From a virus, in IMG/VR virus record IMGVR_UViG_3300024262_000164, positions 1 to 30,755 of that record: DNA of 30,755 nucleotides. One strand, given 5' to 3'. Position numbers and translations under genes: made by a program. Below the pieces are notes generated by a model. The model saw only the letters and a program-made list of their open reading frames with translations, made no database searches and was not told the origin of the DNA. Positions 35-27,866 of the stretch are shown in pieces. How positions within the stretch are numbered: position 1 is the stretch's first letter; every line of letters begins with the position of its first letter.

Positions 35-1615
35 CTACCTGTTTGTGCAATTTACCGTTTCTCCTTTGAGCGTTCCGGATGAAGGTTTTACAAAAAACCA
101 TGACGCGCATTTATCCCCGGCCACTTTCGAGGCGGAAACGTCGGTAATATACAGCGGTTTTATGCCGTGGCTCTCCACATAATTGTCCACCGCCCGCATA
201 ACCCCGATCAGGCGCCGGTTGTTGACGTAATCATGCCCGCTGATGATTCCGCCTTCCCGGACCTTGCGCGACCACAGGATAATATCCAGCATCACGAAAT
301 CGTACCAGTGCATGCCGTCGATATAAACAAAATCCAAGGAATTGTCCGGGACGTCCCTTGCGGCATCCTCGCTGAATTTTTCAATGAAAACCACATCCAG
401 ACCTTCCATTCGTTTGTGGGTCATGTTCCGGAATTTAGCATGTGTTTTTTCTCCGTACCGCCGGTTGCTCAGATCATAATCTTTGTATGGATCAACCAGG
501 TACAGTTTCAGGCCCGGGATAATATTCATCATGGCGATGGCGTTTCTTCCCCGCTGTACCCCTATCTCGGCCCCGACTTTAAACCCCAATGCCGCAAAAT
601 GCTCATAAAGCCCTGCTCTGTTCATGCCTGTTTTTATTTCGGTCATATCTGTCTCCGGTTTCTCATTTTTACCCGCCGCCCCTTTGGCGGCCTGATCTTC
701 TGCTCTCTGACCTCCGACCTCTGACCTCTGACCTCTGACCTCTGACCTCTGTCCTCCGACCTCTGACCTCTGACCCCTGACCTCTTTCCCCGGCCACCCC
801 GGTACCGGATCAAACCGCTCGATCAGCGGCCACAGCTTTTTCTCCGGATATTTCTCACAGATGGCGGCGATGCTCCGTTTCTTCTCCGGATTCCGGATCA
901 CATGCGCCCGTGTCTTGTTCCAGTGGGCGTACCAGGTGTTTCGGGTGAGCACGCAGCGCCCGCCGTTCAACCAGGCGTACAGGCTGATCTCCTGGGCTTC
1001 TCTGCCCATTGACGCGAAATTCACTTCGTCCAAAAGACCCATCATGACAAACCAGCCCCGGTGCATGAACCAGCAGGACCCCTGGAACGTCATGAGATCA
1101 CAGACCTGTTGATCCTTGACCCGGTCCGCGAACTCCGGCCATTTCCGGCCCTTCAACGTTCCCCGCTCGATGTGTTCAAACTCATAATATTTCTCTCTGT
1201 GGGGCAGACTTTCCGGTCTGTCATCCTTTTTTAACCTGTCATTTCCCAGCCTGTCGGACCTATCCCAGGTCTTTACATCCAGCACATACCGCCGGGGCAC
1301 CACCACCCAGTCCGGTTTTTTTAAATCCGCTTTGAGTTTCTGGTCAAACCCCTTGTCAAAGCAGCAATGGGCGTCGCATTTGAGCAAATACGTGCCCTTG
1401 GCCATGCGCGCCCCGGTGTTAATCGCCGCCCGCATGCCTTTGGATTGGCCGTGGTGGGCGATCCTTAATCTTGTGTCAGGCTTTAACGGCGGGTCCGGCC
1501 AGTACCCGTCCAGAACTACAATAATTTCGATGCTGCCGGCGGCTTTTTCAAACACGTCGTCGACGGTGTGTTGCAGATACGGCTCATTTCGGGCCGGAAT
1601 GATTACGGATATCAT
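35..1615 (-). CDS. Glycosyltransferase family 2 fused to a class I SAM-dependent methyltransferase
   Basis: A 526-residue two-domain protein at the distal end of the tail-fibre module. Residues 1-275 look like a GT-A family 2 glycosyltransferase: VIIPARNE at 4-11, a DxD-like CDAH at 80-83, and an acidic REAQEISLYAW stretch at 205-215. Residues 324-515 look like a Methyltransf_24-type small-molecule or sugar methyltransferase: motif I EIGVQRGRNA at 350-359, then DFVYIDGMHWYDF and GGIISGHDY. The domains are joined by a linker of RGQRSEV heptapeptides (about 278-305) encoded by a 7-bp DNA repeat. The methyltransferase begins at Met324 with its own GGAG seven bases upstream (ATG at 646), so it may once have been, or may still be, translated separately. 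Residues about 119-139 come from an inserted REP-like repeat. Start: ATG with AAGGAG 13 bases upstream. The likely role is modification of host surface glycans or virion proteins; no substrate can be read from the sequence. Confidence 0.85.
   Translation of the reverse strand: MISVIIPARNEPYLQHTVDDVFEKAAGSIEIIVVLDGYWPDPPLKPDTRLRIAHHGQSKGMRAAINTGARMAKGTYLLKCDAHCCFDKGFDQKLKADLKKPDWVVVPRRYVLDVKTWDRSDRLGNDRLKKDDRPESLPHREKYYEFEHIERGTLKGRKWPEFADRVKDQQVCDLMTFQGSCWFMHRGWFVMMGLLDEVNFASMGREAQEISLYAWLNGGRCVLTRNTWYAHWNKTRAHVIRNPEKKRSIAAICEKYPEKKLWPLIERFDPVPGWPGKEVRGQRSEVGGQRSEVRGQRSEVGGQRAEDQAAKGAAGKNEKPETDMTEIKTGMNRAGLYEHFAALGFKVGAEIGVQRGRNAIAMMNIIPGLKLYLVDPYKDYDLSNRRYGEKTHAKFRNMTHKRMEGLDVVFIEKFSEDAARDVPDNSLDFVYIDGMHWYDFVMLDIILWSRKVREGGIISGHDYVNNRRLIGVMRAVDNYVESHGIKPLYITDVSASKVAGDKCASWFFVKPSSGTLKGETVNCTNR
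704..785. repeat. Heptamer tandem repeat R1 (AGGTCAG on coding strand)
   Basis: About eleven imperfect 7-bp units (plus strand TGACCTC) in the linker of the glycosyltransferase-methyltransferase fusion. It is the longest of ten copies of this repeat family in the window. In this orientation all three frames read R-G-Q-R-S-E-V without stops. Confidence 0.95.
1199..1256. repeat. REP-like hairpin copy inside the glycosyltransferase
   Basis: The plus strand starts TGTGGGGCAG and continues to a CATCCTTT tract, matching the repeat at 11229-11300 almost base for base over its first ~35 bases. It then holds a partial second arm (AGCCTGTCGG). It is read in frame as residues about 119-139 of the glycosyltransferase. 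The hairpin GGGCAGACTTTCCGGTCTGTC is preserved with changes on both arms relative to the other copies. Confidence 0.75.
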
Positions 1616-1653
1616 AATGCGGCGATACTCCTTTCAACGGTTAAAGGTTCGTT

Positions 1654-1902
1654 TTATGACGGTGACACGCTCGGGCTGATCGACGGTGACACGCTCGGGC
1701 TGATCGATGGCGACACGCTCGGACTCACCGAAGGTGACATATTAAACACCTGCGCCTCTAATGCGTCACACCGGGCCGCCAGTGCCGCAATCGCCGCCAC
1801 ATCTATCGTGATCTGCGCATCCAGCTCCGCTAACGGCGGATTCATATGTGTCGGCTTGAAATCCGTGGTTTCCGTCCACGGTGTGTGATAATTAGTGGTC
1901 AT
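1654..1902 (-). CDS. Small tail-fibre-associated protein with Ser-Pro-Ser-Val C-terminus
   Basis: An 82-residue protein. Residues 1-53 start MTTNYHTPWTETTDFKPTHMN and continue with a short Ala/Ile-rich helical heptad region. Residues 55-81 are a pure SPSV/SPSI repeat running to the stop codon. The start overlaps the end of the preceding gene by 11 bases and has AAGGGAA upstream. N-termini of this style occur in small proteins at the end of phage fibre modules, but I do not recognise a named family. The repeat tail recurs on two virion proteins of this window, suggesting the protein is also structural; this is inference. Confidence 0.6.
   Translation of the reverse strand: MTTNYHTPWTETTDFKPTHMNPPLAELDAQITIDVAAIAALAARCDALEAQVFNMSPSVSPSVSPSISPSVSPSISPSVSPS
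1657..1737 (-). repeat. 12-bp Ser-Pro-Ser-Val/Ile coding repeat
   Basis: Twenty-seven codons of (SPSV/SPSI) ending exactly at the stop. At DNA level it is a 24-bp repeat made of two 12-bp halves (SPSI + SPSV). Related repeats close the genes at 12716 and 17091. Confidence 0.9.
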
Positions 1903-2119
1903 TTTGCATTCCCTTCGTTAATGTATTAAACATCTGTGTGACCATATTTGCCATTATCGGGTTTTCTTTTAATGCCGGATGGTCTGTTAAATTTGCCATC
2001 ATGTTGTCAATGTGGGTCTTGGCATTACCCCTGGTTTCATCCTTTGCGAAAGTTAATTCTTCCAATAGTTTAGAGTGATATTCCAACGTTTTTAAAATTT
2101 GATCGATTTTTTTTTCCAT
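1892..2119 (-). CDS. Small hypothetical protein, predicted coiled coil
   Basis: A 75-residue protein beginning MEKKIDQILKTLEYHSKLLEEL, a good amphipathic helix, followed by a second helical part rich in Met and Asn. The ATG at 2119 is chosen because GGAG lies 6 bases upstream; the longer reading frame to 2287 would overlap the preceding gene heavily. It lies 10 bases after the discoidin-like fibre gene and overlaps the next gene by 11 bases, so it is translationally coupled. Function unknown; a fibre chaperone or trimerisation partner is possible but unsupported. Confidence 0.6.
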   Translation of the reverse strand: MEKKIDQILKTLEYHSKLLEELTFAKDETRGNAKTHIDNMMANLTDHPALKENPIMANMVTQMFNTLTKGMQNDH

Positions 2120-2129
2120 TGTATCTCCA

Positions 2130-3032
2130 TTATAAGAATAGAAAAAAATTGCCGCTAACATTCCCCAAAGTGATCCCTGTATAAAAAATCCGTTTTTCGT
2201 TAGCCGACCAGGGATCCTCTCCGACCACAGCATGCACATCGTCCCATTCCCATGTATCATAGTTATACTGCTGTAAAGTCCATGCAATAGGTGTGTCGCT
2301 CACAACAAAGCTGTCATTTCTTGCTCTAAATGAATATGAAGTTGGAATAATCTCATCCAGAGCGTCAAAACTAAATCGCCACCAATGAGCAGTTTCTCCG
2401 GCATAATCCGAATGCCATAGTGTTGATGTTGAGTCATCGATGGCCCCGGATGCGACATAGGTTGAATATACCGACGAACCTTCCGATAATCCATCTGCCT
2501 CATCCAATACATCCACTGCACCCACAAGAAGCTCGATCTCAACGAATGCACAATATCCCCGATAGCTGGGTGGAAAATCGTCAAATCTAAACCTGAACCT
2601 TGGCCCACCGGATATATTAAAAGTTCTTTTTTCATTGGCTGACCAAATTGGTTCATCGACCACCTGATGGATCGTTACCCACTCATCGACAATCCATTTT
2701 TGCAATCGCCAAGCTATTGGCGTATCACTTCCGGAATAACCATCATTTCTTGCACGAAAAGTGTATGAAGTCGGATCAATTCCTGTTGTTGAATCTAAGT
2801 CAAATCGCCACCAATGAGCAGTCTCTCCGGCATAATTCGAATGCCATCCGGATGTATCATTGTCATCGCACGCATAAGATGCCGATGATAATTCACTTGA
2901 AGCTGATGCAGTTCCTTCAGCATTGTCCAGCACATCTGCCCCATCAATGAGTTCAATCTCATAAAAAAAACAATATCCCCGATAGCTGGGTGGAAAATCG
3001 TCGAATAAAAATCTGAATTTGTCACCGGCCAT
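2130..3032 (-). CDS. Tail-fibre/adhesin protein with two tandem discoidin-like carbohydrate-binding repeats
   Basis: A 300-residue protein consisting almost wholly of two copies of a ~140-residue unit. Both copies share RF.FDDFPPSYRGYC, EIEL, ADVLD, a run of Ser/Ala, then HS.YAGETAHWWRF, PTSY.FRARND, SDTPIAW and WSANEKR. The layout (indel-rich Ser stretch, W-H-S, AHWWRFDF, FRARND) fits the F5/8 type C/discoidin galactose-binding fold used by phage adhesins for glycan binding. The start is placed at ATG 3032, one base after the stop of the preceding gene, as at other junctions here. An earlier ATG at 3101 would overlap that gene by 68 bases, although the extra residues (TIWSQTYRD) weakly resemble the repeat junction WSANEKR. 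Expected on the outer tail tip. Confidence 0.75.
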   Translation of the reverse strand: MAGDKFRFLFDDFPPSYRGYCFFYEIELIDGADVLDNAEGTASASSELSSASYACDDNDTSGWHSNYAGETAHWWRFDLDSTTGIDPTSYTFRARNDGYSGSDTPIAWRLQKWIVDEWVTIHQVVDEPIWSANEKRTFNISGGPRFRFRFDDFPPSYRGYCAFVEIELLVGAVDVLDEADGLSEGSSVYSTYVASGAIDDSTSTLWHSDYAGETAHWWRFSFDALDEIIPTSYSFRARNDSFVVSDTPIAWTLQQYNYDTWEWDDVHAVVGEDPWSANEKRIFYTGITLGNVSGNFFLFL

Positions 3033-3033
3033 A

Positions 3034-8633: not shown

Positions 8634-8718
8634 GGTTTTAAGTTTTAAGATTTATGTTTTAGGTTATGGATTATTCCGTTTTTTTCCTAAAACCTAATAC
8701 CTAAAACCTAAAACGATC
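8634..8718. repeat. Intergenic inverted repeat of TTTTAGG/CCTAAAA heptamers (copy A)
   Basis: The left arm has TTTTAAG-type 7-bp units and the right arm CCTAAAA-type units, separated by an AT-rich loop; the transcript can fold into a long imperfect hairpin. It fills the gap between the tape-measure stop and the next gene. Two near-identical copies lie at 12620 and 13763. Confidence 0.9.
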
Positions 8719-11981: not shown

Positions 11982-12348
11982 TATCTTCTTTTTTGCCCTG
12001 CTTTTTTAGCTCCATCCGCTCCAGCATCCGCACCTTGCGCCACACGCACTCACTCAAATCAACATCCAGTTCCTTTGCCCGGGTTCTCACTTCCCGGTAA
12101 TCCAGCCCCACAATGCCCATGCCCGCGCCCCGCCACTGGGTGCTCACATCCTGCCACAGCTCCAGGGCCTCCAGGTTCTCGGACATGATCTTGGGCATGT
12201 TGTGGTCGCCGTATTCGCAGGTTTTACAGGGCGGTTTGTCCCCTGACCTCTGACCTCTGACTTCTGACTTCTTTCTCTTGGCCGCCCGACAGGTCTTGCA
12301 ATACTCTATTCGTCGTCTGTCTGAGAGCCATTCCCAGACGTCGGCAAG
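11977..12348 (-). CDS. gpT-like extension of tail assembly chaperone, read by -1 frameshift (DUF1799-like)
   Basis: An open -1 frame of 123 residues following the slip site at 12348-12354; the fusion with the upstream chaperone would be 212 residues. After LADVWEWLSDRRRIEY it carries a CKTC...CKTC pair, zinc-ribbon-like, with a heptamer-repeat insert (SEVRGQRSG) between the two knuckles. Then comes a DUF1799-like helical part, LELWQDVSTQWRGAGM and IVGLDYREVR. An ATG at 12198 could start a 73-residue standalone product, but no Shine-Dalgarno precedes it and the cysteine pair lies upstream of it in the same frame. Its place between tail tube and tape measure is that of lambda G-T. Confidence 0.8.
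   Translation of the reverse strand, partial: LADVWEWLSDRRRIEYCKTCRAAKRKKSEVRGQRSGDKPPCKTCEYGDHNMPKIMSENLEALELWQDVSTQWRGAGMGIVGLDYREVRTRAKELDVDLSECVWRKVRMLERMELKKQGKKEDM
12241..12272. repeat. Heptamer repeat R2 (AGGTCAG family)
   Basis: Four units, read in frame in the chaperone extension between its two CxxC knuckles, in the stop-free orientation. Confidence 0.9.
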
Positions 12349-12614
12349 TTTTTTTCCTCATCCTTGGCCCCGTAGGTTTCCTTGACGATCCCGCCGAACA
12401 CTTCCATGGTTTTCTTGTGGGATTGTTCTTCCAGAAGTTTTAAGGCCTCCGGATCCAGCACACAAAGATCCATGACCTTTTCGATGCCTTCATCCACCGT
12501 ATCCATTTTAAAGATCGGCGGATTGTAATAAGAAAAATAAAACCCGTACGGTTTAAACTCCCGGATTTCTTTCCGGGTCAGCCCCCGGACCTTTACGCCG
12601 TTCACTTCGCGCAT
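12306..12614 (-). CDS. Tail assembly chaperone (gpG-like), zero-frame product
   Basis: A 102-residue acidic protein (MREVNGVKVRGLTRKEIREF... FKMDTVDEGIEKVMDLC...) directly after the tail tube gene, as in lambda V-G. It ends with a disordered NLPTSGNGSQTDDE. Residues 87-89 (E-K-N) are encoded over the slippery heptamer, so part of translation probably continues into the -1 frame. Start ATG has GGAGG 7 bases upstream. The G/GT pair is known to coat the tape measure and recruit tail tube protein in siphophages. Confidence 0.8.
   Translation of the reverse strand: MREVNGVKVRGLTRKEIREFKPYGFYFSYYNPPIFKMDTVDEGIEKVMDLCVLDPEALKLLEEQSHKKTMEVFGGIVKETYGAKDEEKNLPTSGNGSQTDDE
12348..12354 (-). other. Programmed -1 frameshift site A AAA AAC
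   Basis: In the zero frame the codons are GAA AAA AAC, giving the canonical X XXY YYZ heptamer. The -1 frame stays open downstream with no stop. Seven bases later a possible 6-bp stem CGTCTG/CAGACG (12335-12340 with 12314-12319) could act as stimulator. Confidence 0.85.
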
Positions 12615-12619: not shown

Positions 12620-12712
12620 AAACCTCCGTTTTACGTTTTAAGATTTAAGTTTTAGGTTAAGGATTGTTCCATTTTTTGCCTAAATCCTAATACCTAAAAC
12701 CTAAAACGATCA
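12620..12712. repeat. Intergenic inverted repeat of TTTTAGG/CCTAAAA heptamers (copy B)
   Basis: Same element as at 8634, in the junction between tail tube and chaperone. It ends in the same CGATC sequence as the other copies. Confidence 0.9.
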
Positions 12713-12715: not shown

Positions 12716-13741
12716 TTAAGACGGACTCACGCTCGGGCTCACACTCGCGCTCGGGCTCGTACTCGCGCTCGGGCTCACACTTGCCGATGTCTCCAGCGCG
12801 TAGCTGGCCACGCCGTTGGTCAGCCGGGCCACGATATCCGATGTTTCGGACCCGTCCGTGTAGTACCCCACAAAATCTAGAGACACGATCAGGCCCTGGG
12901 GACCTTCGATGGGAACCCCGTTCACCGAGTAGAGCAGCTCCTGGATCTCGAACTCTAAGATCGATGAGGCGCCGGCCGTCATGGTAACCTTTAAAGACGT
13001 TTCCGTGTCCCCGGTGGCTTTGTCCAGCAGGGTTTTGTCCTCAAACAGGGCTTTTAAGTTCCCGGTCACGGCCACGAACCCTTCGGGGATGTCCCCGCGG
13101 ATCCCGCCGCCGCCGATCACAAACGAGTTGGGGTCCAGCCCGAAATCGATATTTATGGACAGTTCCGTGGCATTGGCCAGCGTGGCCTCCCCTTCTTCCA
13201 GGGCCGCGTCAAAATTATTCACCCGGGCCAAAGATATGGTGGAAGGGGACCCGTCAAAGGCCGATGTCTCATGGCTCATCTGGGCGCCTAAAACGCCTAA
13301 GTTGCAAACCAGCTCCCCGTCCCCGCCCACGGTCATGGAAAATGTTGAGATCTTGCATCCCACGTACCGCTCATACACACTGACCGCCAGATCGGTGAAC
13401 GCTTTCTCCAGGGAAAATGGGGGCATGGACGATCCCACCTTGTATTCGTGCACATAAGGATCCGCCCCGGTGGATACGGGCGCGCCGAACATGGCATACA
13501 GCCAGTAGGCCATGGCCAAAGAGTCCGCCGGCACCACGATGGGTCCGTTCACGTCCTGGTTGCCCGCGAACGGCACCACGGTGTTCCGGGTCCCGGTCAA
13601 TGTGGCCGGCACCTGGCGGGCCTTGACCCCGGTCACGCCGCACGTATTGAGCGGCAACACAAACCCGTCCACCGCCACGGTTCCGAACGTATCTTCAAAT
13701 CCCATAACGATCTGGGCATTAACGCCGCGTTGTTGTGTCAT
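12716..13741 (-). CDS. Major tail tube protein
   Basis: A 341-residue protein starting MTQQRGVNAQIVMGFEDTFG, typical of siphophage tail tube proteins. It has a central tube-like beta sandwich (SVYERYVGCKISTFSMTVGG... SHETSAFDG) and a later LKVTMTAGASSILEFEIQELL strand set. The last ~23 residues are an SPSA/SPSV repeat up to the stop, not part of the usual fold and presumably exposed on the outside of the tail. Its position before the G/GT chaperones fits. Start ATG has AAAGGAG upstream. The family is known to polymerise into the tail tube. Confidence 0.8.
   Translation of the reverse strand: MTQQRGVNAQIVMGFEDTFGTVAVDGFVLPLNTCGVTGVKARQVPATLTGTRNTVVPFAGNQDVNGPIVVPADSLAMAYWLYAMFGAPVSTGADPYVHEYKVGSSMPPFSLEKAFTDLAVSVYERYVGCKISTFSMTVGGDGELVCNLGVLGAQMSHETSAFDGSPSTISLARVNNFDAALEEGEATLANATELSINIDFGLDPNSFVIGGGGIRGDIPEGFVAVTGNLKALFEDKTLLDKATGDTETSLKVTMTAGASSILEFEIQELLYSVNGVPIEGPQGLIVSLDFVGYYTDGSETSDIVARLTNGVASYALETSASVSPSASTSPSASVSPSVSPS
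12719..12787 (-). repeat. 12-bp Ser-Pro-Ser-Ala/Val coding repeat on the tail tube gene
   Basis: Twenty-three codons of SPSx units ending at the stop codon, the same type as at 1657 and 17094 though the host genes are unrelated. Confidence 0.9.
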
Positions 13742-13762: not shown

Positions 13763-13848
13763 TGGTTTTAAGTTTTACGATTTAAGTTTTAAGTTATGGA
13801 TCATTCCTTTTTTTGCCTAAATCCTAATACCTAAAACCTAACTCGATC
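13763..13848. repeat. Intergenic inverted repeat of TTTTAAG/CCTAAAA heptamers (copy C)
   Basis: Third copy of the element at 8634 and 12620, between the tail-terminator-like gene and the tail tube gene. Confidence 0.9.
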
Positions 13849-16186: not shown

Positions 16187-16204
16187 TTTTATGTCCTCCG
16201 TTTT

Positions 16205-16292
16205 TTAAAGGTTCCGGGTTCAGGGGTTCAAAGGTTCAAAGGTTAAAAAAAGAAACCAACCGTGAACCGTGAACCGTGAACCGTGAACCATT
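16205..16292. repeat. Intergenic inverted repeat of GGTTCA(aa)/GTGAACC units
   Basis: The left arm holds GGTTCAAA units; the right arm holds four perfect GTGAACC heptamers. The arms are complementary over GGTTCA per unit. It fills the junction of decoration protein and capsid. Confidence 0.9.
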
Positions 16293-17090: not shown

Positions 17091-17930
17091 TTACGACGGG
17101 CTCACGCTCGGGCTTACGCTCGGACTCACGGACGCGCTCGGGCTCAACGATATGCTCGCGCTGCCGATGCCGGTGCCCTTGGCCCAGACGCCGCGCTTTT
17201 GGGTCACCACCCAGCCGTGGGCGTCGCTGTAATCCAGGTCGATGAAATCGCCGCGCCGGGCCGTGACCAGGGTATTGATAACGGCATACCCGTCGGCGGC
17301 GGAAACATCCGCCAGCTCGATCATATCCAAAGGTTCCGGGTCCGCGGTGACCTGCACGGTGCCAAACGCCCCGCAGTTTAACAGTCGAATATTTCCCATG
17401 CCCTCAATGGCCGGCATGGCAATGACCGCGGTGGCCGTGACACAGAGCACCTTGCTCGAATCCTGGGCGTCCAGCTCCAAATCGCCGGTCACGGTCTGGG
17501 CGGTAAATCCCGCGTGGGGATCCTCGAACAGGTCCGCGTTAAACTCCACGATCACATACCCCGAACTGACCCAGCGGCGCACAAACCCAACGAACACGCC
17601 GCTGGTTTTCAAAAAACTAAAAGTGTTGTCATCCGTGGCATAGACCGGGTTGCCCACGTCCGTGATCACCGCTCCGGACACCGCCAGCTTGATATTTCCC
17701 TTTCGGACCACGCGCACGTTGACGGCCGCGGCGGCGCCCAAAGAATTGTCCGCCTGTTTCTCCGCGAACCCGGCGAACCGGTCCGCAGAGGTCAACGGCT
17801 GGGCGTGCCCGGTGCCGTCCACCACACCAACGGCGGCGCCCTCATAGATAATGTCCCCGGCGATCACCGGAAATTCGTTTCGATTCCCGAGTTCATAGGG
17901 CCTGGGCACATTGGCTGCTAAAGTTGTCAT
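17091..17930 (-). CDS. Head decoration protein, paralogue 1, with Ser-Pro tail
   Basis: A 279-residue paralogue of the next gene. Residues 1-250 align end to end with it; residues ~257-279 are an extra SPSA/SPSV tail (SLSPSASVSPSV...). It lies just after the protease-scaffold gene and before the capsid, the usual decoration slot. AAGGAG lies 10 bases upstream of the ATG. The tail is absent from the paralogue, so it was gained by one copy or lost from the other. Exposed serine-rich tails of this type could be glycosylated; this is hypothesis only. Confidence 0.7.
   Translation of the reverse strand: MTTLAANVPRPYELGNRNEFPVIAGDIIYEGAAVGVVDGTGHAQPLTSADRFAGFAEKQADNSLGAAAAVNVRVVRKGNIKLAVSGAVITDVGNPVYATDDNTFSFLKTSGVFVGFVRRWVSSGYVIVEFNADLFEDPHAGFTAQTVTGDLELDAQDSSKVLCVTATAVIAMPAIEGMGNIRLLNCGAFGTVQVTADPEPLDMIELADVSAADGYAVINTLVTARRGDFIDLDYSDAHGWVVTQKRGVWAKGTGIGSASISLSPSASVSPSVSPSVSPS
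17094..17162 (-). repeat. 12-bp Ser-Pro-Ser-Ala/Val coding repeat on the decoration gene
   Basis: Twenty-three codons ending at the stop. The period and codons (AGC GTG AGC CCG) match the copy on the tail tube gene. Confidence 0.9.
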
Positions 17931-19154: not shown

Positions 19155-20780
19155 TTATGCTTTTTCCTTTGTCTCATCCTCCAAATCCGAACCTGATTTT
19201 TCTTTTTCTGACCTCTGACCTCCGACCTCTGACCTCTGATTTTCCGCCCCCATCCCCGCATCCTTTTTCATCCGCTCTTCCTTGGCCCGCTGGGGAAACT
19301 TCTGCTCCCAGTCCCCGCCGGTCAATGCCGCGGTTTCCTCGGAATGGGTGGTCAAGGTCAATGCCAGCCGTTCTTTGGCCGCGTTCACTTCCTTGAGCTC
19401 ATCGATCTGGCCCTTGGACGGCCCGGTCCATTCGGATCCCAGGTACGCCATTTTTATCAATGGATCTCCGGTCAAAAATCCGGGCGCAGCGATCCGGCCC
19501 CGGGCCACGGCCTCGGTCATCCACAATTCGTACACGGGTCTGCACAATACGTCTTCCAGCCATTTTCTCCGGCCCATGTAAAACCGCCACGCTTCGAGCA
19601 GGGCGGCCCGGGCCGCGGAATAGCTGGCCGTAAAATGTTTGACAAGGATCTCGAAGGGAAGCTCCAAGGCCACGCCGATCTGGCGGGAGACGGCCAGCAC
19701 AAACGCGTCAAACGCCTGGTTGGGACGCCCCGGATTGGCGGTCTCGATGCTTTCGTTGGGCAAAAGATCCAGGATCGCGCCGGACCCCATTTTATAATCC
19801 TTGTCCGCGGTGGACCCGCCGATCTCGGTGGTGGGCTGCATGGGATACATGCCCGCGTGGTATTCGGATTTGATAAACACGGTAAAAAACGCGGAAATCA
19901 CCGACGCGTCCACCTCCGCGTCCGTGTACCGGCCCAGTTGTTTCAAGGTTTCGATCACCGGGGCCAGGTCGGGCACGCCCCGGGACTGGCCGATGCGCAG
20001 CTTTCTAAATAAATGCAATACGTTTTTGCGCCCGGTGGCCGCACCGTATGCGGGCACCATGGCCCATTGGTTTTGTTTGGAGTATATGTTTCCCGGATGC
20101 CCTTTTAAGATGTGGTATTGTTTGGGCCGGCCATTGGCGTCTTTTAAAATACCGCCGGCCAAAAACTCCGTGTCCGGGTCGCTGTCTTTGTTGCACACCC
20201 GGTCCGCTTCGATGAGCTGGAGCTGTAAATTATAGGCCCGGAATTTATTGGATGTTGACGGGGTGAGCACAAACCCGTCCCCGTTTTCCAGGGTAGTGCG
20301 AAACGACAGGTCCTGGATGCCCGCAAAATTCTGGGCGCCGGACACGTCACAGTCAAACGAGTCCGCCCAGAGTTTCCACTCGGCCTCGGTTCGCGACTCC
20401 CAGGCATCGGCCTGGTCTTCGGTGAGGTTTAAAATATTGCGGTCAATGCGGGATTTTAATTTCAGTCCCGTGCCCACCACGGACGTGCATTTGGTATTGA
20501 TGGCGCCGCACGCCAAAGGATTGTTTCTAATCAGATCCCGGGACCGCTCCCTTAAATCCGGCAGCTCGGCAATAATATCCGTGTCCGCGTCCCCGGCGGA
20601 AGGGTTCCACTCGGACAAAGAGCGCCGCTTTTTGGACGCCCCGTGATACGCCCCGGCCAGCGCCATGGCATACCGCGCCCGCAGGCGCTGCGCCCCGCGA
20701 CGCGGTGAAAAGAAATTCACCGCGCGATCAACAATGTTCTGGTGGACCTCAATCTTTTTCCGATGTCTGACTTCTCTCAT
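19155..20780 (-). CDS. Portal protein (lambda gpB type)
   Basis: A 541-residue portal protein. Signature RSRDLIRNNPLACGAINTK followed by VVGTGLKLKSRID is typical of lambda-family portals. Middle motifs include the SFRTTLENGDGFVL strand and LQLIEADRVCN. The C-terminus (~520-533 when counted from the upstream TTG) is a heptamer-repeat insert, NQRSEVGGQRSE, then KEKSGSDLEDE. The start is set at ATG 20780 with AAGGGC upstream; an in-frame TTG at 20801 adds seven residues. The portal is the dodecameric vertex through which DNA enters and which the terminase docks on. Confidence 0.9.
   Translation of the reverse strand: MREVRHRKKIEVHQNIVDRAVNFFSPRRGAQRLRARYAMALAGAYHGASKKRRSLSEWNPSAGDADTDIIAELPDLRERSRDLIRNNPLACGAINTKCTSVVGTGLKLKSRIDRNILNLTEDQADAWESRTEAEWKLWADSFDCDVSGAQNFAGIQDLSFRTTLENGDGFVLTPSTSNKFRAYNLQLQLIEADRVCNKDSDPDTEFLAGGILKDANGRPKQYHILKGHPGNIYSKQNQWAMVPAYGAATGRKNVLHLFRKLRIGQSRGVPDLAPVIETLKQLGRYTDAEVDASVISAFFTVFIKSEYHAGMYPMQPTTEIGGSTADKDYKMGSGAILDLLPNESIETANPGRPNQAFDAFVLAVSRQIGVALELPFEILVKHFTASYSAARAALLEAWRFYMGRRKWLEDVLCRPVYELWMTEAVARGRIAAPGFLTGDPLIKMAYLGSEWTGPSKGQIDELKEVNAAKERLALTLTTHSEETAALTGGDWEQKFPQRAKEERMKKDAGMGAENQRSEVGGQRSEKEKSGSDLEDETKEKA
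19208..19240. repeat. Heptamer repeat R3 at the portal C-terminus
   Basis: About 4.5 AGGTCAG-family units, in frame near the end of the portal gene, stop-free orientation. Confidence 0.9.
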
Positions 20781-20801
20781 TCGCCCTTGCCCTTCATTCA
20801 A

Positions 20802-21141: not shown

Positions 21142-21292
21142 GTGGAAACCGTTATGCGACGAAAAAAGAACCTAAAAAGATGATAAAAGTATTTAATCAG
21201 GTGTTGACAAGGCTTTCGGCGGGCCGAAAGCAGAGGTCAGAGGTCAGGGGTCAGAGGTCAGATAATGCAATTCGTTGGCCAACCTTCTTTTG
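21142..21292. promoter_or_regulatory. Non-coding control region with palindrome and reversed heptamer repeat
   Basis: This stretch has no gene. It holds a 20-base inverted repeat GCTTTCGGC-GG-GCCGAAAGC (21212-21231), directly followed by heptamer repeat R4 (21231-21262), the only copy of that repeat in reversed orientation. On the minus strand TTGTCA and TATCAT lie 19 bases apart below the palindrome, a weak promoter candidate feeding the head genes. None is proven. Confidence 0.4.
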
Positions 21293-21520: not shown

Positions 21521-21549
21521 GATTTCCTCCTTTCTCACCTTCTGATTTT

Positions 21550-21783
21550 CTAACTTTCTTTAATATATTTCGGTGTATCCTTCAAGTATTTATTCCGCTG
21601 ATACAGCATCCAGTGATACAGATCCACATTCAACGCCCGCCAGGTCCGCTCCCCGGGCCGTTTCCACGCGGGCAGGCCTTCTTTTTCAATCAACTGCACG
21701 ATCTGTTTGTGATCTTCCTTCACAAAAGAACAAATCTGCTCCGCCCCCTTCAAACACTCAATTTTCGCCGGGATAGATTTCAT
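21550..21783 (-). CDS. Small helix-turn-helix-like protein
   Basis: A 77-residue protein. EDHKQIVQLIEKEGLPAWKR then RTWRALNVDLYHWM resembles a MerR/excisionase-type HTH (helix, turn with LPAW, wing, D-L-xx-W). It might be a DNA-binding regulator or a second terminase-associated small subunit. No Shine-Dalgarno is visible; the 112-base AT-rich gap upstream (21784-21895) contains no other gene. Confidence 0.5.
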   Translation of the reverse strand: MKSIPAKIECLKGAEQICSFVKEDHKQIVQLIEKEGLPAWKRPGERTWRALNVDLYHWMLYQRNKYLKDTPKYIKES

Positions 21784-21895
21784 TTATCAATTTTTAATTT
21801 ATGATTTATTTTGGCCAAGAATATAATTACAATAACCAATTCTAAATATATAAGGAAAAGTATAAAAAAAATATATACCTTCATTTTTTAATCCC

Positions 21896-23839
21896 TCATT
21901 TTTTAATCCCTTTACTCCGCACCCTCCGCCCTTGCCGACCTCCGCCCTCCGACCTCTGACCTCCGTCCTGTTTGGGCCAGTGCATCATGCCCAGAACATC
22001 ATGGGCGCACAGGCACAGCACCGCGCAGTCCCACAAATGGTTATCCTTCCCGGACGGGCACTCCCACACGCCTTTATCGTTGATAAACTCGGATGTCATG
22101 TGCCGGGCGTAGGCTTCGGAGAACTCCGTGTTTTCGTGCCACGCGCCCGGGTCCGCCGGCGAGATCTCCAGCAGGGTGGACAATTCATCCTTGTAATAGT
22201 TTGTGTTCACGTTCACGGCTTTGAGCCCGCCCGGGATGGGCTTTTTACCGCCCGGGAAATATTCCAAATTGTTCCAGGTATGGGACTGGGCCATTTTTTG
22301 CCGACCGATGGATGGAAATATCTTGCCCCGGTGTTTCAAGCAGAACTGATACACCTCGGACGTGCGATGCCCCAGGGCGTCCTGGATCACCAGGCGGATC
22401 ACATACGCGTTTCCATCCTCGTCCATGTATTTATCCGCCCACAACACCTGCTCCAGCGCGCCCCAGGTGGTCACGAACCCTTCCCGGACCCCCCAGGACT
22501 CTTTGACCAGCTCGGGACCGCCAAACCCGAACGCCCGGATCCGGTACCAGAACCCGTCGTCCTGGGTGTCCACCGACGCCACCAGCCCGGCCACGATCCC
22601 GCCGCCCGGGACCCGGCCCCTGGGCCGATCATCGCGCAGCGCCAGGATCGCGTCCTCTTTGCGCAACACCTCGTAGTGCCGCCACGGCACCGCCTCATCC
22701 GCGTTTTTGAAATCTTTGAGTGCGGTTTTGTCTTTCCGGCCTTTTAAAAACCTGGCCATAATTTCCGACAGGCCCACAAAATGGGACAACCAGGACGGAA
22801 TGTGAAATCCGATTTTTTTGGGCTTGTACGCGTTAAGATAGTCCATTAAACCCATGGAATTTTCCGCATGAAACATCGCGCCGTCTTTGATATATCCGGT
22901 CCGCCACTGGCCGTTTTGAACCGCCTCGTCCCGCAACTCGTCATCCCAGTTGGCATGACACGCGCTGCAGTCATACCAGGCTAAATTCTGGGTCTCTATT
23001 ACGTTCGGATCCCGCTCGTCGCCCGGTATCTTAAAACGCTTTTCATTAAACGTCATGTATTCGAACGCGCCGCACTCCGGGCATTGTGCCAGGAAAACAA
23101 AAACCACCTGGGCTTCCACACACATGGCGTCCCACACCGGGCCGGTCTCGATGGTGGGAGAGGAAAACTTCCAGATCTTGCGAAACCCCCGATAGGTCCG
23201 GGTGCGCTTTTCCCCCAGCGCCATGGGCGAGGCCTCTTTTTTACCGGCGGTGTCCGGATATTTGTCGATCTCGTCGAATATCACATAAGGAAGAGGCTTG
23301 TTGGCCAGGCGGGCCGCGGACCTTGCCCACCCCATGTATATCTGCATGTGTTTTAAATTATGCCGATAAAACGAGATATCGTCATCCGTGCCCGTTAAGT
23401 ATGATTTCAATCTCGGGCTGGTCAGAATCATGTCCGCGATTCTGTCTTTGGAGTTTTCCCGGGCGGTCTGCTCATCCGGATAAATAAACAGGGCGGATCC
23501 CGGGCGCCGATCAATGGCGTAGCCGATACAGTTGTTTATGGCCTCTGATTTTCCGGTTTGCGGCGCAGCGCATACGATAATGGTCTCTATGGACGGAAAG
23601 AACGCGGCGTCCATGATATCCGTTAAATAAGGCGTGGTCGCGTTGCGCCAGGGTCCCGGCCTGGAACTCATGGTGACCACCCGGTGGTTTTCAGCCCACA
23701 GGCTGCACCGCATGGGCTTTTTCTTCCGGAAGATCTTGCGTTCCCCGGTTTTGAGTTTCAGGTGGTATTTTTCAACCTCCCCAAACCCCGGCGGAAGCCA
23801 TTTCCGGTCAATGACTATGGGTTGCTCAAATATTTGCAT
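21896..23839 (-). CDS. Terminase large subunit (GpA family)
   Basis: A 647-residue packaging motor and nuclease. Walker A APQTGKS at 92-98; Walker B YVIFDE at 185-190. A GpA-typical zinc ribbon CPEC...CSAC follows (~255-300). The nuclease part has acidic strands SVDTQDDGFWYRI and VIQDALGH and ends with a DNHLWDCAVL block. The C-terminus is a heptamer-repeat insert (GGQRSEGGGR). A 15-bp unit GGGATTAAAAAATGA is duplicated across the stop codon. Start ATG abuts the upstream stop. The family cuts concatemers at cos-like sites and drives DNA into the prohead. Confidence 0.92.
   Translation of the reverse strand: MQIFEQPIVIDRKWLPPGFGEVEKYHLKLKTGERKIFRKKKPMRCSLWAENHRVVTMSSRPGPWRNATTPYLTDIMDAAFFPSIETIIVCAAPQTGKSEAINNCIGYAIDRRPGSALFIYPDEQTARENSKDRIADMILTSPRLKSYLTGTDDDISFYRHNLKHMQIYMGWARSAARLANKPLPYVIFDEIDKYPDTAGKKEASPMALGEKRTRTYRGFRKIWKFSSPTIETGPVWDAMCVEAQVVFVFLAQCPECGAFEYMTFNEKRFKIPGDERDPNVIETQNLAWYDCSACHANWDDELRDEAVQNGQWRTGYIKDGAMFHAENSMGLMDYLNAYKPKKIGFHIPSWLSHFVGLSEIMARFLKGRKDKTALKDFKNADEAVPWRHYEVLRKEDAILALRDDRPRGRVPGGGIVAGLVASVDTQDDGFWYRIRAFGFGGPELVKESWGVREGFVTTWGALEQVLWADKYMDEDGNAYVIRLVIQDALGHRTSEVYQFCLKHRGKIFPSIGRQKMAQSHTWNNLEYFPGGKKPIPGGLKAVNVNTNYYKDELSTLLEISPADPGAWHENTEFSEAYARHMTSEFINDKGVWECPSGKDNHLWDCAVLCLCAHDVLGMMHWPKQDGGQRSEGGGRQGRRVRSKGIKK
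21936..21968. repeat. Heptamer repeat R5 at the large-terminase C-terminus
   Basis: About four degenerate AGGTCAG/AGGGCGG-type units read in frame as GGQRSEGGGR near the end of the gene. Confidence 0.8.
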
Positions 23840-24010
23840 TTAATTCAATAATTCCAAAACCCTTTTGAGTAAAACATCTTCATTCTCCATAAACTCAGCA
23901 GGGTGCCAATAATCTGCGTCATCGTAAATTCCTTCTTTCACGTCCATCCCCGTTCCGGGATAAATAAAAACTTTATCGTCAATTTTTTCTACACAAAGGT
24001 ACTTTCTCAT
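23840..24010 (-). CDS. Small hypothetical protein
   Basis: A 56-residue acidic protein MRKYLCVEKIDDKVFIYPGTG... VLLKRVLELLN. ATG 24010 is chosen for the AAAGGAAAGGG purine tract; the longer frame to 24094 overlaps the neighbour. The stop directly abuts the large-terminase ATG, so translation is likely coupled. Family not recognised. Confidence 0.55.
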   Translation of the reverse strand: MRKYLCVEKIDDKVFIYPGTGMDVKEGIYDDADYWHPAEFMENEDVLLKRVLELLN

Positions 24011-24042
24011 GTTTTTTCCCTTTCCTTTGACAGCTCTAATTA

Positions 24043-24255
24043 TTAACCTATAACACGCTCCAAAACATAAGCGCCGGAGATGCCTTTCAACCATACCACG
24101 GGCGTGTGGCCGCTAAGAATTTCGGCGGGATACTTCACGGTTGTTTCTATTTTTGCGCCAAAATCTTTTACAACAGTCACGGACGACCCCACCGGATGTC
24201 TCAAATTAAACGCGTCAACCTTGCTTTGTATAACTTCTTTAGATTCTCGAACCAT
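24043..24255 (-). CDS. Small hypothetical protein
   Basis: A 70-residue protein MVRESKEVIQSKVDAFNLRH... then a beta-barrel-like VGSSVTVVKDFGAKIETTVKYPAEIL... PVVWLKGISGAYVLERVIG. The second half looks like a small SH3-like barrel. ATG 24255 has AAGGAGG upstream. Accessory gene in the packaging module; no named family. Confidence 0.6.
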   Translation of the reverse strand: MVRESKEVIQSKVDAFNLRHPVGSSVTVVKDFGAKIETTVKYPAEILSGHTPVVWLKGISGAYVLERVIG

Positions 24256-24312
24256 AAAGCCTCCTTTTTTTTTCATTCATCATTTTTACCCCGTGAAACC
24301 TTTCTTTTTCTG

Positions 24313-24393
24313 TTTCACTGGGGCGATGTTGAACGTTCGATGTTGGACGTTCATCTTTTTTTTTCCGACCTCCGATTACCGACCTCCGACCTC
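24313..24393. repeat. GTTCGAT heptamers plus AGGTCAG-family repeat R6
   Basis: Upstream of the small protein at 24043, GTTCGAT-type units (24325-24355) adjoin degenerate AGGTCGG units (24364-24393). The latter encode the last residues (EVGGR) of the putative small terminase. Confidence 0.75.
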
Positions 24394-25116
24394 TATCTCT
24401 ATCTCATCCATCCTGGCAAACTCATCGAACAAATCCTCTGTTTTTGAAATCAACAGGTTTATCACGGCCTGGGTGTGTTCTAAGTTCCCCCCGGCCAGCC
24501 GGATCAGGTCCCTTGCGATGCTTCGGAACGCATGGTTCATCCCGGCCATCAGCGCGCCGGCTTTAATGGCCTGCTCGGTTTCCACCTGGTTGCGGTCGAG
24601 CAGGTTCTTTTTCATTACGTCCAGTTTGAGGGTGGTTTCTTCCAGCTTGGCGGACAGCATTTTCAATTCCTGCTCTTGTTTTGAGCGGATCATCCGGGTG
24701 GATTCAATGTCGTATTCGACCTGGTGGGGCTTGACCAGGCCGATTTTGCTTATATATGATTTTACCTGACTTTCCAGCACGGATCCGTCCGACTCTATTT
24801 TCAACAGGCCGTTTTTTACATCCTGATACAATTTGCCCTGGCTGATTTTATACCCCAGGCGTTTTAAATATTTAAGCACTTCGGACCGGTTTTCAAACGA
24901 CGGCTCCGCCTCCCCGGCCAAACAGACGGCCAACATCTTAGACGCCTTGTCAAATGCCTTCAGATTCGCCTCGGAAGGCTCCTTCTCCACCGCCTTCCGG
25001 GCCGTATCCTTGGCCGTCTCTAGTAATTTTATATCACTATCCGGCACTTTTTCCCCTATCCTCTTTTTCCGATCTCTGACCTCAGACCTCTGACCTCTAT
25101 TCCCTTCCTCATCCAC
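24376..25116 (-). CDS. Putative terminase small subunit
   Basis: A 246-residue helical protein located before the large terminase. The segment RSEVLKYLKRLGYKISQGKLYQDVKNGLL (~77-105) is a good DNA-binding wHTH of the Nu1/small-terminase style; a long coiled coil follows (RMIRSKQEQELKMLSAKLEETTLKL). The first ~17 residues from GTG 25116 (GNRGQRSEVRD) are heptamer-repeat sequence. GTG 25047, preceded by AGGGGAAAAA and 9 bases after the upstream stop, is a plausible true start. It would recognise the packaging site; assigned from HTH and position. Confidence 0.6.
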   Translation of the reverse strand: MDEEGNRGQRSEVRDRKKRIGEKVPDSDIKLLETAKDTARKAVEKEPSEANLKAFDKASKMLAVCLAGEAEPSFENRSEVLKYLKRLGYKISQGKLYQDVKNGLLKIESDGSVLESQVKSYISKIGLVKPHQVEYDIESTRMIRSKQEQELKMLSAKLEETTLKLDVMKKNLLDRNQVETEQAIKAGALMAGMNHAFRSIARDLIRLAGGNLEHTQAVINLLISKTEDLFDEFARMDEIEIEVGGR

Positions 25117-25331
25117 GCCCGCATCTTCCCGGTCTCCATGGCCACCGCAACACTCACCGACGGCAGCATCTCATCCGGATCCACGATCACAAAAACCCGA
25201 AACCTGCCGAGTTTAAAATAATACTCTTTTTTCCGCACAGGGCGTCTCGTGGGCGTAAACTCATGATGATATGTGGCCCCTCTGCGGGTGCTCTGCATAT
25301 CCCCAAGCACATAACGAAAAATTTTCTCCAT
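25056..25331 (-). CDS. Small hypothetical protein ending in repeat-derived residues
   Basis: A 91-residue protein MEKIFRYVLGDMQSTRRGATYHHEF... EYYFKLGRFRVFVIVDPDEMLP. It ends EVRGLRSEIGKRG, coded by heptamer repeat R7, so its natural C-terminus was probably replaced or extended. ATG lies one base after the HNH gene stop, with GGGGG upstream. Function unknown. Confidence 0.55.
   Translation of the reverse strand: MEKIFRYVLGDMQSTRRGATYHHEFTPTRRPVRKKEYYFKLGRFRVFVIVDPDEMLPSVSVAVAMETGKMRAWMRKGIEVRGLRSEIGKRG
25070..25098. repeat. Heptamer repeat R7 at a gene junction
   Basis: Four units coding in two frames at once: the C-terminus of the 91-residue protein and the N-terminus of the long form of the small terminase. 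Both frames read RGQRSEV-like residues, as expected for a 7-bp unit. Confidence 0.85.
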
Positions 25332-25332
25332 T

Positions 25333-26148
25333 TCATACCCCCGTTTCTTTTATTTTCTCAAACATTTTGACTTCCATCTTCACCATGGCCAATATGCTCG
25401 GTTTTAATGACGCCGACGCGTCTTTATAGCCGTGCTTATTCAATCTCAACAACTCCGCCCGGGATACCAGCATTAAATTGTCGGGATCATCACAGTTGAG
25501 CTTATCGCCGTCCCTAAAACACACGGCAAACCCGTCCGGTACCGGACCGTACGCCTGCTCCCATGTGTGGACATGCTTAAACTTCCACCGGGTCGGCCGG
25601 TTAAAATTATGATCCCACTCCGCGACTTTTATCAAAACGTATCCGTCCTTTAAGCAGATCCGCTCCGAACCGAGCGGCTTTCGGTTCGGCGGTACACTTC
25701 CTTTTTTAAAACTCGTCTTGTTCGCGCCCGTAAGACCCTGGCCTTTAGTTCCGTGATTCCAGGGTTTGTGGCCTTTTGGGAAATGGCCGGTTCTTCCGGA
25801 TGTAAAACCCCGGTTATGGACAGCCGTTTTAATTTGATCCCAGGTCATATGGGTATTGAATTTATCATTAAAAATTATTCTAAGCTCGGTAACAGAACGG
25901 CCCTTATATTCTTTTCTAAGGAATTCAACCTGCCCTGGCGTAAACAGCCGAAGCCGGTTGACTAATCGATCCTTGTGCGCCCGCCCGCACCTGATCTTAT
26001 GATTTTTAAGCGCAGCGTTAATGCTTCCTTCGCCTTGTTTTGATTTGAAATGCTTATTAAACGCCTTTGTCAGGTCCCCGACAGTCATAGACGGATATCC
26101 TGCTCTCAAAAAATCGAGGTGATCGGTTGTGTATTTAAATCTCTTCAC
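25333..26148 (-). CDS. HNH endonuclease with two N-terminal DNA-binding repeats
   Basis: A 271-residue protein. Residues ~5-60 and ~68-120 are two copies of a HTH-like module (F/YT..L.FLR..Y....V..L...FN..F......I..A..N). The HNH nuclease is at ~190-232: KHVHTWEQAYGPVPDGFAVCFRDGD...NLMLVSRAE, the His-Asn type common in phage homing-like enzymes. GTG start, overlapping the upstream gene by 14 bases. It could be a free-standing homing endonuclease or a helper for packaging; no nearby intron or split gene supports the former. Confidence 0.8.
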   Translation of the reverse strand: MKRFKYTTDHLDFLRAGYPSMTVGDLTKAFNKHFKSKQGEGSINAALKNHKIRCGRAHKDRLVNRLRLFTPGQVEFLRKEYKGRSVTELRIIFNDKFNTHMTWDQIKTAVHNRGFTSGRTGHFPKGHKPWNHGTKGQGLTGANKTSFKKGSVPPNRKPLGSERICLKDGYVLIKVAEWDHNFNRPTRWKFKHVHTWEQAYGPVPDGFAVCFRDGDKLNCDDPDNLMLVSRAELLRLNKHGYKDASASLKPSILAMVKMEVKMFEKIKETGV

Positions 26149-26389
26149 GTTTTTCTATACCAAGCATGGCCGGGAATTTATCAATGAGACCCTCGTTAAA
26201 AGCCTTCGCGGCTTCGACGGAAACCCTGGCGTTTTGTATTATCTGGCTGGCAATACCGCTCATGGATTTTGCGCGCGCGATTTCTTTTTCAAAAGCCTCT
26301 CCCTTCAGGTCGTTGTCGTTTAAACGTTCCATTTGTTCAAATAAATGGTTGTTCAAATCGATCATTTTATTCTTTGTATTGTTTTTCAT
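26135..26389 (-). CDS. Small helical hypothetical protein
   Basis: An 84-residue protein MKNNTKNKMIDLNNHLFEQMERLNDNDL... AKSMSGIASQIIQNARVSVEAAKAF. ATG 26389 with GGAGGG upstream is chosen; the Shine-Dalgarno overlaps the last codons of the primase, whose stop is one base before this ATG. Similar small helical proteins are frequent next to phage replication genes, but their function is unknown to me. Confidence 0.65.
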   Translation of the reverse strand: MKNNTKNKMIDLNNHLFEQMERLNDNDLKGEAFEKEIARAKSMSGIASQIIQNARVSVEAAKAFNEGLIDKFPAMLGIEKREEI

Positions 26390-26390
26390 T

Positions 26391-27866
26391 TTACCCTCCA
26401 AAAATATTATCCCCGGTAATTTTTCCCTCCGGATGCGCGGAAATAAAACTGAAAACCTCGGGCGTTAAAAACACCAGCGCCGAAATCCGCTTGTAAATTT
26501 CCCAGTTCTGCTGCTGCCACGTCACCGGCGCCGCAATATACGTTCGCTTCGGCGAGTTATGAACCACCACCGGATGCCGCCGCAACAACCCCGCCAACTC
26601 TTCCACCGCCGGTCCCTCTGTCCTCTGTCCTCTGTCCTCTGTCTTCTGATTTCCGACCTCCGACCTCTGACCTCTGTTCCCTTCAACACCCCCAGGTATT
26701 TCGCGTCCCTTCTTCTGATCATTCAAAAGCAAACCTCCAACCCCCCACGCCGAGGGAAGCCCGGCGCTGATCCACGCCTTAATGTCGATTCCAGCCTGAA
26801 ACGCCTCCCCCGGATCCGTGCCCTCGGGCACCGGCCAGGTTTTGGCCTGGTGAAATTCATCTTTCCACCACTTCATAGCCTTGGCGCCGGCGTCATCAAA
26901 ATCCTGGGCCAGTAAAATAACCGCCGCATTCCGCAGTTTTTCCATTAATTGTTCGCCGGGCTTGGCGGATGCGGATCCTAACGCCAAGACCGAACACACC
27001 CCCCCGCCCCTCGAGTGGCACATCTCCCCGTCCAGCTCCGCCTCGAGTACTAAAACCGCGCGGTGATCAGCGGAAATATACATCATATCCATACAGGATC
27101 CGGGTAACACGTAATATCTGGGCGGATTCTCCTCGGGTCTGCGGATCCGGATCCTTCTGACCTCTGACCTCTGACCTCCGATCTCTGGAATTACAAGCCC
27201 CCTGGGGATCCATAATTTCTTTTTCACCATCGTCCCGGTTTTATTTTCCTTCATCACCGTGGCCAGCCCCCATGTCTCCCTGGGGCGCCACAGATCCCGG
27301 CCGTCTCTGCCGGGATTCCATCCCAGACGAAAATTTTTAACCGTATCGAGACAAATTCCCCGATCGAGTAGCCAGGCGAGCTGCTCGTCATTCTCCAACA
27401 ACTGATCATGTGCCCAGGTGACCAGCTTCTCCGCCTGCAGGCGCCAAACATCCGGAGGAAGCTCCGATTGTTTTTCTTTTTTTTCCTGACCTCTGATCTC
27501 TGACCTCTGACCTCTAATCTTTTCACCCGGCGCCCTGGGCGTCCGGTATTGATAAGTATTGTCACACATTCCCGAATCCGGCAGCCCGATACCCGCCCGG
27601 ACCGCCAGGCGTTTCACGGCATCCGTAAACGATACCCCGGATTTTCGCGTAACAAATTCAACAACATCCCCGCCCGCACCACACCCAAAACAATAAAATA
27701 TCTGTTTTTCAGCAGACACCGAGAAAGACGGCGTTTTTTCATTATGAAACGGGCACGATCCAAAAAAATCAACGCCGGTTTTTTTCAACTCAACACACTC
27801 GGATATCACGTCGACAATATTCACCGCCGATTTGATTTCGGCTATTTTCTCATCAGATATGTGCAT
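26391..27866 (-). CDS. DnaG-like primase (CHC2 zinc finger + Toprim)
   Basis: A 491-residue protein. The zinc finger is at ~35-70: CPFHNEKTPSFSV then FYCFGCGAGGDVVEF (C38, H41, C59, C62). The Toprim core includes VLVLEAELDGEMC (271-283; catalytic Glu275) and ILLAQDFDDAGAKA (317-330; DFD). No helicase domain is present. Three separate AGGTCAG-repeat inserts lie at residues ~117-127, ~229-237 and ~397-417, all outside the catalytic motifs. ATG is one base after the BRO gene stop. It would make RNA primers for phage replication; a second primase-helicase is encoded upstream. Confidence 0.88.
   Translation of the reverse strand: MHISDEKIAEIKSAVNIVDVISECVELKKTGVDFFGSCPFHNEKTPSFSVSAEKQIFYCFGCGAGGDVVEFVTRKSGVSFTDAVKRLAVRAGIGLPDSGMCDNTYQYRTPRAPGEKIRGQRSEIRGQEKKEKQSELPPDVWRLQAEKLVTWAHDQLLENDEQLAWLLDRGICLDTVKNFRLGWNPGRDGRDLWRPRETWGLATVMKENKTGTMVKKKLWIPRGLVIPEIGGQRSEVRRIRIRRPEENPPRYYVLPGSCMDMMYISADHRAVLVLEAELDGEMCHSRGGGVCSVLALGSASAKPGEQLMEKLRNAAVILLAQDFDDAGAKAMKWWKDEFHQAKTWPVPEGTDPGEAFQAGIDIKAWISAGLPSAWGVGGLLLNDQKKGREIPGGVEGNRGQRSEVGNQKTEDRGQRTEGPAVEELAGLLRRHPVVVHNSPKRTYIAAPVTWQQQNWEIYKRISALVFLTPEVFSFISAHPEGKITGDNIFGG
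26612..26678. repeat. Heptamer repeat R8 in the DnaG-like gene
   Basis: About nine units (AGGTCAG, AGGACAG, AGGTCGG variants) encoding residues ~397-420 in a linker. Confidence 0.9.
27154..27187. repeat. Heptamer repeat R9 in the DnaG-like gene
   Basis: About 4.5 units encoding residues ~229-237, just before the Toprim domain. Confidence 0.9.
27486..27518. repeat. Heptamer repeat R10 in the DnaG-like gene
   Basis: About 4.5 units encoding residues ~117-127, between zinc finger and core. Confidence 0.9.

Follow-up and report, generated by a model that had tools for sequence, protein, structure and literature searches.

Heptamer arrays of about 31 bp, probably spread by copying between tolerant sites, in a virus genome and its relatives

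Dispersed heptanucleotide repeats are a known kind of repeat (PMC4679880, PMC4692102, PMC2700814, PMC6749651). The TAACTGA direct repeats occur in Beggiatoaceae, Cyanobacteria and Bacteroidetes (MacGregor 2015, PMC4679880), and their horizontal spread has been proposed there without a mechanism. The GGGNATC heptamers of Xanthomonas and Nostoc occupy sites that are conserved among related species while their sequence is variable, and their preference for about four units has been ascribed to G-quadruplexes (Rehm 2015, PMC4692102). Meanwhile, Geobacter metallireducens possesses 49 copies of an element with four tandem heptanucleotides, located within and between genes, as well as another class with five tandem heptanucleotides (MTYCTGA), which belongs to a set that according to the authors occurs mostly in pairs (PMC2700814). 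Here, arrays of the heptamer AGGTCAG are described in a viral DNA, the complete IMG/VR record IMGVR_UViG_3300024262_000164 of 30,755 bp, which is called the window throughout. A search of the literature turned up no paper naming bacterial AGGTCAG arrays or their peptides.

A preliminary description of this DNA had reported AGGTCAG-type 7-bp tandem arrays at ten loci, and all ten are present, as detected by Tandem Repeats Finder (TRF) and direct scoring. They have a period of 7 bp and at least three copies, with one unit at ten unlinked sites, and the window holds 38 two-unit AGGTCAG matches with up to two mismatches, for an expectation of 0.04 after dinucleotide shuffling. The arrays and the open reading frames (ORFs) in which they lie are the following:

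705-785, minus strand: AGGTCAG array of 11.6 units (81 bp) by TRF, in the glycosyltransferase-methyltransferase linker of ORF 35-1615
12243-12272, minus strand: AGGTCAG/AAGTCAG array, 30 bp, flanked by a CxxC motif on each side, in the part of the tail assembly chaperone gene read in the -1 frame
19207-19239, minus strand: AGGTCAG array, 33 bp, in the portal ORF 19155-20801, near the C-terminus and past the Pfam portal domain
21231-21262, plus strand: AGGTCAG array, 32 bp, intergenic and reversed relative to the genes
21937-21963, minus strand: AGGTCAG array, short and degenerate, in the terminase large subunit ORF 21896-23839, in the C-terminal tail past GpA_nuclease
24364-24393, minus strand: AGGTCGG-type array, forming the C-terminal end of ORF 24376-25116 together with its stop codon
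25074-25098, minus strand: AGGTCAG array, spanning the overlap of ORFs 25056-25331 and 24376-25116
26615-26677, minus strand: AGGTCAG/AGGACAG array of 9 units, primase linker site 3, ORF 26391-27866
27156-27187, minus strand: AGGTCAG array, 32 bp, primase linker site 2
27486-27515, minus strand: AGGTCAG array, 30 bp, primase linker site 1, directly past the zinc-ribbon domain (amino acids 4-96)

The array-bearing genes thus comprise a glycosyltransferase-methyltransferase fusion, the tail chaperone, the portal, the terminase, two small genes and the primase, and the earlier claim that one unit has spread to unrelated genes is supported. Wherever Pfam domains were detected, the arrays lie between or outside them. 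Arrays of this kind are a widespread class of short dispersed repeats, in which the unit is genome-specific and common to many sites of each genome. We hold it to be probable, with some reserve, that they are discrete heptad-repeat elements of about 31 bp, which are copied from site to site and persist only where they are tolerated.

Relatives with about 60-82% identical terminases were aligned with the window site by site. Regarding primase site 1, the AGGTCAG of the window is matched by GTGTCAG in L174, L012 and L176 and by GAATATC/GAACATC in L308, and the site is empty in L175, L180 and L181. At primase site 2, AGGTCAG is present in the window, L174 and L012, GTGTCAG in L176 and GAACATC in L308/L309, with L175, L180 and L181 again empty. 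The linker between the ATPase and nuclease of the terminase is empty in the window, holds GAACGTC in L174 and L012, and holds AGGTCAG followed by GTGTCAG in L176; the C-terminal tail of the same protein carries AGGTCAG in the window, GGTTCAG in L308 and no array in L174, L175, L177, L178 and L180. In addition, the gap orthologous to 21231-21262 has CTGACCT in L012, GAACC-type arrays in L174 and GTGAACC in L308, and the site at 24364-24393 has an AGGTCGG-type unit also in L174, GGTTCAA in L176 and none in L175, L012 and L308. The array at 25074-25098 is missing from L174, L012 and L176, the portal array (19207-19239) is missing from L174, and at the tail chaperone site (12243-12272) L174 and L179 are 24 nt shorter and lack the array. 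The presence or absence of whole arrays is clean, as seen in L254/L273 and L318/L313. Point mutation from one unit to another is implausible for these pairs, and therefore whole arrays have been gained, lost or replaced. These alignments show that arrays arise, vanish and are replaced by other heptamers at fixed tolerant sites of phage genes, namely interdomain linkers, C-termini, gene overlaps and intergenic gaps. The preliminary description had proposed a comparison with orthologues lacking the inserts, and many of the inserts are indeed missing from orthologues; the different heptamers at matching sites of relatives, as well as the length peak near 31 bp described below, are absent from it. 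This swapping of units at fixed sites appears to be new.

Beyond the relatives, exact (AGGTCAG)4 matched at least 119 stretches, from Verrucomicrobiota, Planctomycetota, Acidobacteriota, Desulfobacterota, Chloroflexota, cyanobacteria, Bacteroidota, Marinobacter, Thalassolituus and Streptomyces, and (AGGTCAG)3 matched 46 viral stretches. The prevalence is low: 6/148 genomes in the phylum of G003, a Desulfatirhabdium metagenome-assembled genome (MAG), with at least G003 and G001 being already known carriers; 4/115 in the phylum of G015, including G015; and, for the phylum containing the Marinobacter genome G021, 1/150, namely G021 itself. A few genomes are rich, one of them with up to 148 exact AGGTCAG matches, and array-rich genomes carry many other heptamers too. 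When AGGTCAG is excluded, 5.3% of units are shared within genomes and 0.46% between them, an approximately 11-fold difference that was reached in 0/500 permutations. As a shuffled control in viral contigs, GAGTCAG was rejected because it is itself an abundant family (32 stretches), and AGTCGAG and GACTGGA were used instead; both of these composition-matched units gave no match among the 148 genomes in which AGGTCAG gives six, and the reversed unit gave none either. It was also observed that viral contigs hold almost as many GAGTCAG and GTGTCAG arrays as AGGTCAG arrays, with many units fitting CAGnnGT, and that the Marinobacter AGGTCAG array of L089 and L112 is part of a sequence that recurs in many copies throughout the genus and may represent gene-cassette repeats.

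Such arrays could be ordinary microsatellites, which would grow by slippage from chance seeds, the polymerase favouring period 7 and the direction rule coming from stop codons. In many prokaryotes, long simple repeats most commonly have a period of 7, according to a survey summarised in PMC4679880. However, ten sites of one genome sharing one unit among 1172 possible, the higher sharing of units within genomes and the empty composition-matched controls all speak against slippage from chance seeds.

The array length bears on the same question. Period-7 arrays peak at 30-33 bp, that is, four units plus about 3 bp, whatever the unit, and this is seen for those AGGTCAG arrays that do not contain the 21-mer used for selection as well as for the stretches of array-rich genomes. 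Among 185 distinct units, each at least three substitutions away from each of the three scanned units, 87 arrays measure 30-33 bp, compared to 54 at 26-29 bp and 19 at 34-37 bp. Two different scoring methods concur on the peak; periods 6 and 8-12 show none, and a Markov shuffle yields hardly any array longer than 27 bp. Histograms of perfect-run length were left unused, as their steps at 20, 27 and 34 stem from variants recurring at one unit position. The favoured first bases of the AGGTCAG arrays are CAGA and the favoured last ones TCAG or CAGA, a span that amounts to four units and three bases, or 31 bp, and the length is kept even though four-unit arrays are mostly imperfect (18/89 perfect). 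The 7n+3 lengths would fit slippage on a 3-nt direct repeat, but the distribution is peaked and not decaying, and we regard a microsatellite origin as unlikely, although still a serious contender. The preservation of the reading frame, with three units adding 21 nt, was rejected as the cause of the peak because it is equal inside genes and between them. A G-quadruplex was likewise rejected as the cause of the about four units, since units without GGG runs behave alike: AGGTCAG, GTGTCAG and GTTTTAA have no GGG run and hence no four G-runs. This sequence-independent length appears to be new.

The orientation of the arrays follows what had been described. In the sense direction the unit is read as the peptide cycle R-G-Q-R-S-E-V, as previously stated, and TGA is found in every antisense frame; the nine genic or terminal arrays have the stop-free direction and lie on the minus strand, with the main genes, and the lone reversed copy (21231-21262) is intergenic. 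The shared strand of 9/10 arrays is not independent evidence, because every main gene is on one strand, and for the same reason the window alone cannot separate an insertion bias from selection. For about 210 pooled loci, genes were thus called by a codon-based procedure after masking of the arrays, to avoid favouring a strand, and an AGGTCAG array was counted as inside a gene when at least 60 codons of the gene lay on either side. Inside genes, AGGTCAG was found 37 times in sense and 4 times in antisense (binomial P about 1e-7), compared to 43 and 53 between co-directional genes (P 0.36). When any heptamer with exactly one stop-free strand is considered, the corresponding ratio is 69:15 for arrays inside genes and 100:97 for those between genes. 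The direction rule of the preliminary description is therefore upheld within genes and absent between them, which means that insertion has no intrinsic direction and that the bias comes from the removal of stop-bearing copies alone. Stop codons act as a filter here, an example of how a direction bias can arise without directed insertion.

It had also been proposed that the copy number acts as an on/off switch, where the gain or loss of a unit would turn the terminase, portal, primase or chaperone on or off by phase variation. A single unit does shift the frame, as 7 is not a multiple of 3, and heptanucleotide switches exist, such as neuO of E. coli K1 (PMC13001214). Nevertheless, the array length was identical in 52/52 comparisons, covering about 27 sites, between contigs 93-100% identical, and the hypervariable copy number expected of a phase-variable contingency locus was not seen. 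Moreover, the genes concerned are essential ones for structure and replication, the majority of the arrays are short (30-33 bp) and interrupted, and half of the arrays are at extreme C-termini or intergenic. The stability is strong evidence against a switch, but not final, because metagenome assembly can hide minority lengths; the switch is considered extremely improbable, and this part of the preliminary description is not supported. Copy-number stability also speaks against the microsatellite origin.

Neighbouring arrays are preferentially inverted. Up to 120 bp apart, 66 pairs are inverted and 15 direct, but an inverted partner no more than 110 bp away is present for only about 19% of the intergenic arrays, compared to 3% in a swapped control. 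In the window, one heptad hairpin of about 80 bp is found in three gene gaps, and another resembles elements of relatives:

8635-8714, no strand assigned: heptad hairpin of GTTTTAA (31 bp), a 21-nt loop and CCTAAAA (29 bp), occupying a whole two-gene gap
12628-12707, no strand assigned: GTTTTAA/CCTAAAA hairpin, second copy, intergenic
13765-13841, no strand assigned: GTTTTAA/CCTAAAA hairpin, third copy, intergenic
16204-16289, no strand assigned: heptad hairpin GGTTCAC/AACCTTTG, with about 80% identical copies in L174 and L308 at another gene gap

In addition, heptamer arms of the GGTTCAC and CCTGACA types flank, in inverted orientation, a small reading frame in L012:6000-6260, in the gap that matches the one with the reversed array of the window.

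This excess of inverted, hairpin-forming pairs, together with the peaked length, would fit arrays that function in DNA or RNA, as protein-binding, hairpin or translational elements, and are kept by selection near 31 bp, about three helical turns, and regulatory roles have been proposed by the authors for the TAACTGA and Geobacter heptanucleotides (PMC4679880, PMC2700814). Functional sites are, however, difficult to reconcile with the lack of a direction preference between genes, with close relatives differing in the unit at one site, with arrays in coding linkers and with the many relatives having none, and we consider this explanation very unlikely.

Regarding the mode of spread of the discrete elements favoured here, new arrays would come mainly from the copying of an existing array to a new site, rather than from slow slippage growth on a local seed. 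Such copying, from an array of the host or of a phage, could proceed via short-patch template switching or illegitimate recombination, and about 3 nt of homology at each end (CAG or AGG) may serve as its anchor. For the phage, a linker array would be close to neutral. Several points weigh against this account. No enzyme, target-site duplication or donor molecule was found, in work that did not include a systematic search for transposases such as RAYT. Adjacent identical variant units number 191 for 144 expected over all arrays, and therefore some local tandem duplication occurs; such variants common to neighbouring units also favour the microsatellite origin. The genomes used for the length were mostly picked for carrying AGGTCAG, GTGTCAG or GAGTCAG, which limits the generality of the peak, and close present/absent pairs are few, so that insertion lengths are measured only roughly. 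In the search for empty sites among Streptomyces, Marinobacter and Aquamicrobium relatives, close Streptomyces were found without the array, with junctions too diverged for an exact reading. It is also conceivable, if distinctly unlikely, that a dedicated bacterial or phage activity makes heptad arrays of fixed length, in about four 7-nt cycles with a 3-nt anchor, for example by telomerase-like templated addition, fold-back synthesis at breaks or single-strand transposition like that of repetitive extragenic palindromic (REP) elements. If true, it would explain why the period is 7 and the length about 31 bp, why units are freely chosen and specific to a genome, why they are swapped at one site and why inverted pairs occur.

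As for the array-bearing genes, ORF 35-1615 matches Glycos_transf_2 (amino acids 3-125) and Methyltransf_24 (amino acids 350-463), with the array at about amino acids 277-303, and the 81-bp array may have made or bridged the fusion of both. The tail chaperone gene ends with an AAAAAAC slippery site (12340-12355), followed by a long open -1 frame, and the array at 12243-12272 is coding solely through this -1 extension (open frame 12348-11977). The portal is lambda-type, with Phage_portal_2 at amino acids 59-412, and the terminase is GpA-type. The array at 24364-24393 is degenerate (AGGTCGG/TAATCGG), and the stop codon of the gene 24376-25116 comes from it. The first ~105 residues of the primase (DnaG-type zinc ribbon, 27486-27866) strongly differ from those of L174, L012 and L181, and the DNA homology begins about 30 bp before array site 1, so that the domain swap adjoins the array. 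The AlphaFold model of the primase, made with four sequences, was uninformative (mean predicted local distance difference test, pLDDT, 39.5). A-rich tracts are present sense-downstream of four arrays (19190-19206, 24355-24363, 25060-25073 and 27470-27485), and some also in close relatives; a poly-A mark of retro-copying was rejected, since the tracts of these window arrays and close relatives are not general in other loci. A second gene-shared repeat family consists of Ser-Pro-Ser-Val C-terminal tails (CGGGCTCACGCT units) in three unrelated genes (1654-1739, 12722-12781 and 17097-17130). The class to which G003 belongs includes genomes with terminase relatives of up to 57% identity, and this class would hold the phage host. 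Meanwhile, the search of known phages gave distant terminases only, at most 30% identical among the matches listed, and no array match with the low-complexity filter on.

Compared to the described systems, the TAACTGA repeats are similar to the window arrays in being dispersed heptamers of distant lineages with one tolerated coding direction, as argued by MacGregor, but they have another unit, lie mostly upstream of start codons and belong to cellular genomes. The phage arrays are instead found in essential phage genes, with units swapped between relatives and a length peak near 31 bp. In contrast to GGGNATC, units such as AGGTCAG and GTTTTAA have no G-tracts and yet reach the same length, and therefore the quadruplex reason cannot be general. 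The Geobacter elements are annotated as regulatory in one cellular genome, whereas here many units are seen in phages, with turnover at fixed sites. REP elements and bacterial interspersed mosaic elements (BIMEs) are discrete, short, dispersed palindromic units, single or as inverted intergenic pairs. The window-type arrays resemble them in their discrete length (the 30-33 bp peak), and differ from them, and from elements like miniature inverted-repeat transposable elements (MITEs), in their tandem 7-bp units, the lack of a conserved sequence and their frequency in coding linkers. So far, heptamers have been described per family (TAACTGA, GGGNATC, GGGACCG), and a separate reason has been proposed for each. 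That unrelated units have a length of about 31 bp in common, within and between genes, in phages and several bacterial phyla, suggests one generator; with a common generator, the mechanism becomes a testable question, for which the swapping of units at fixed phage gene sites is a natural assay of array movement.

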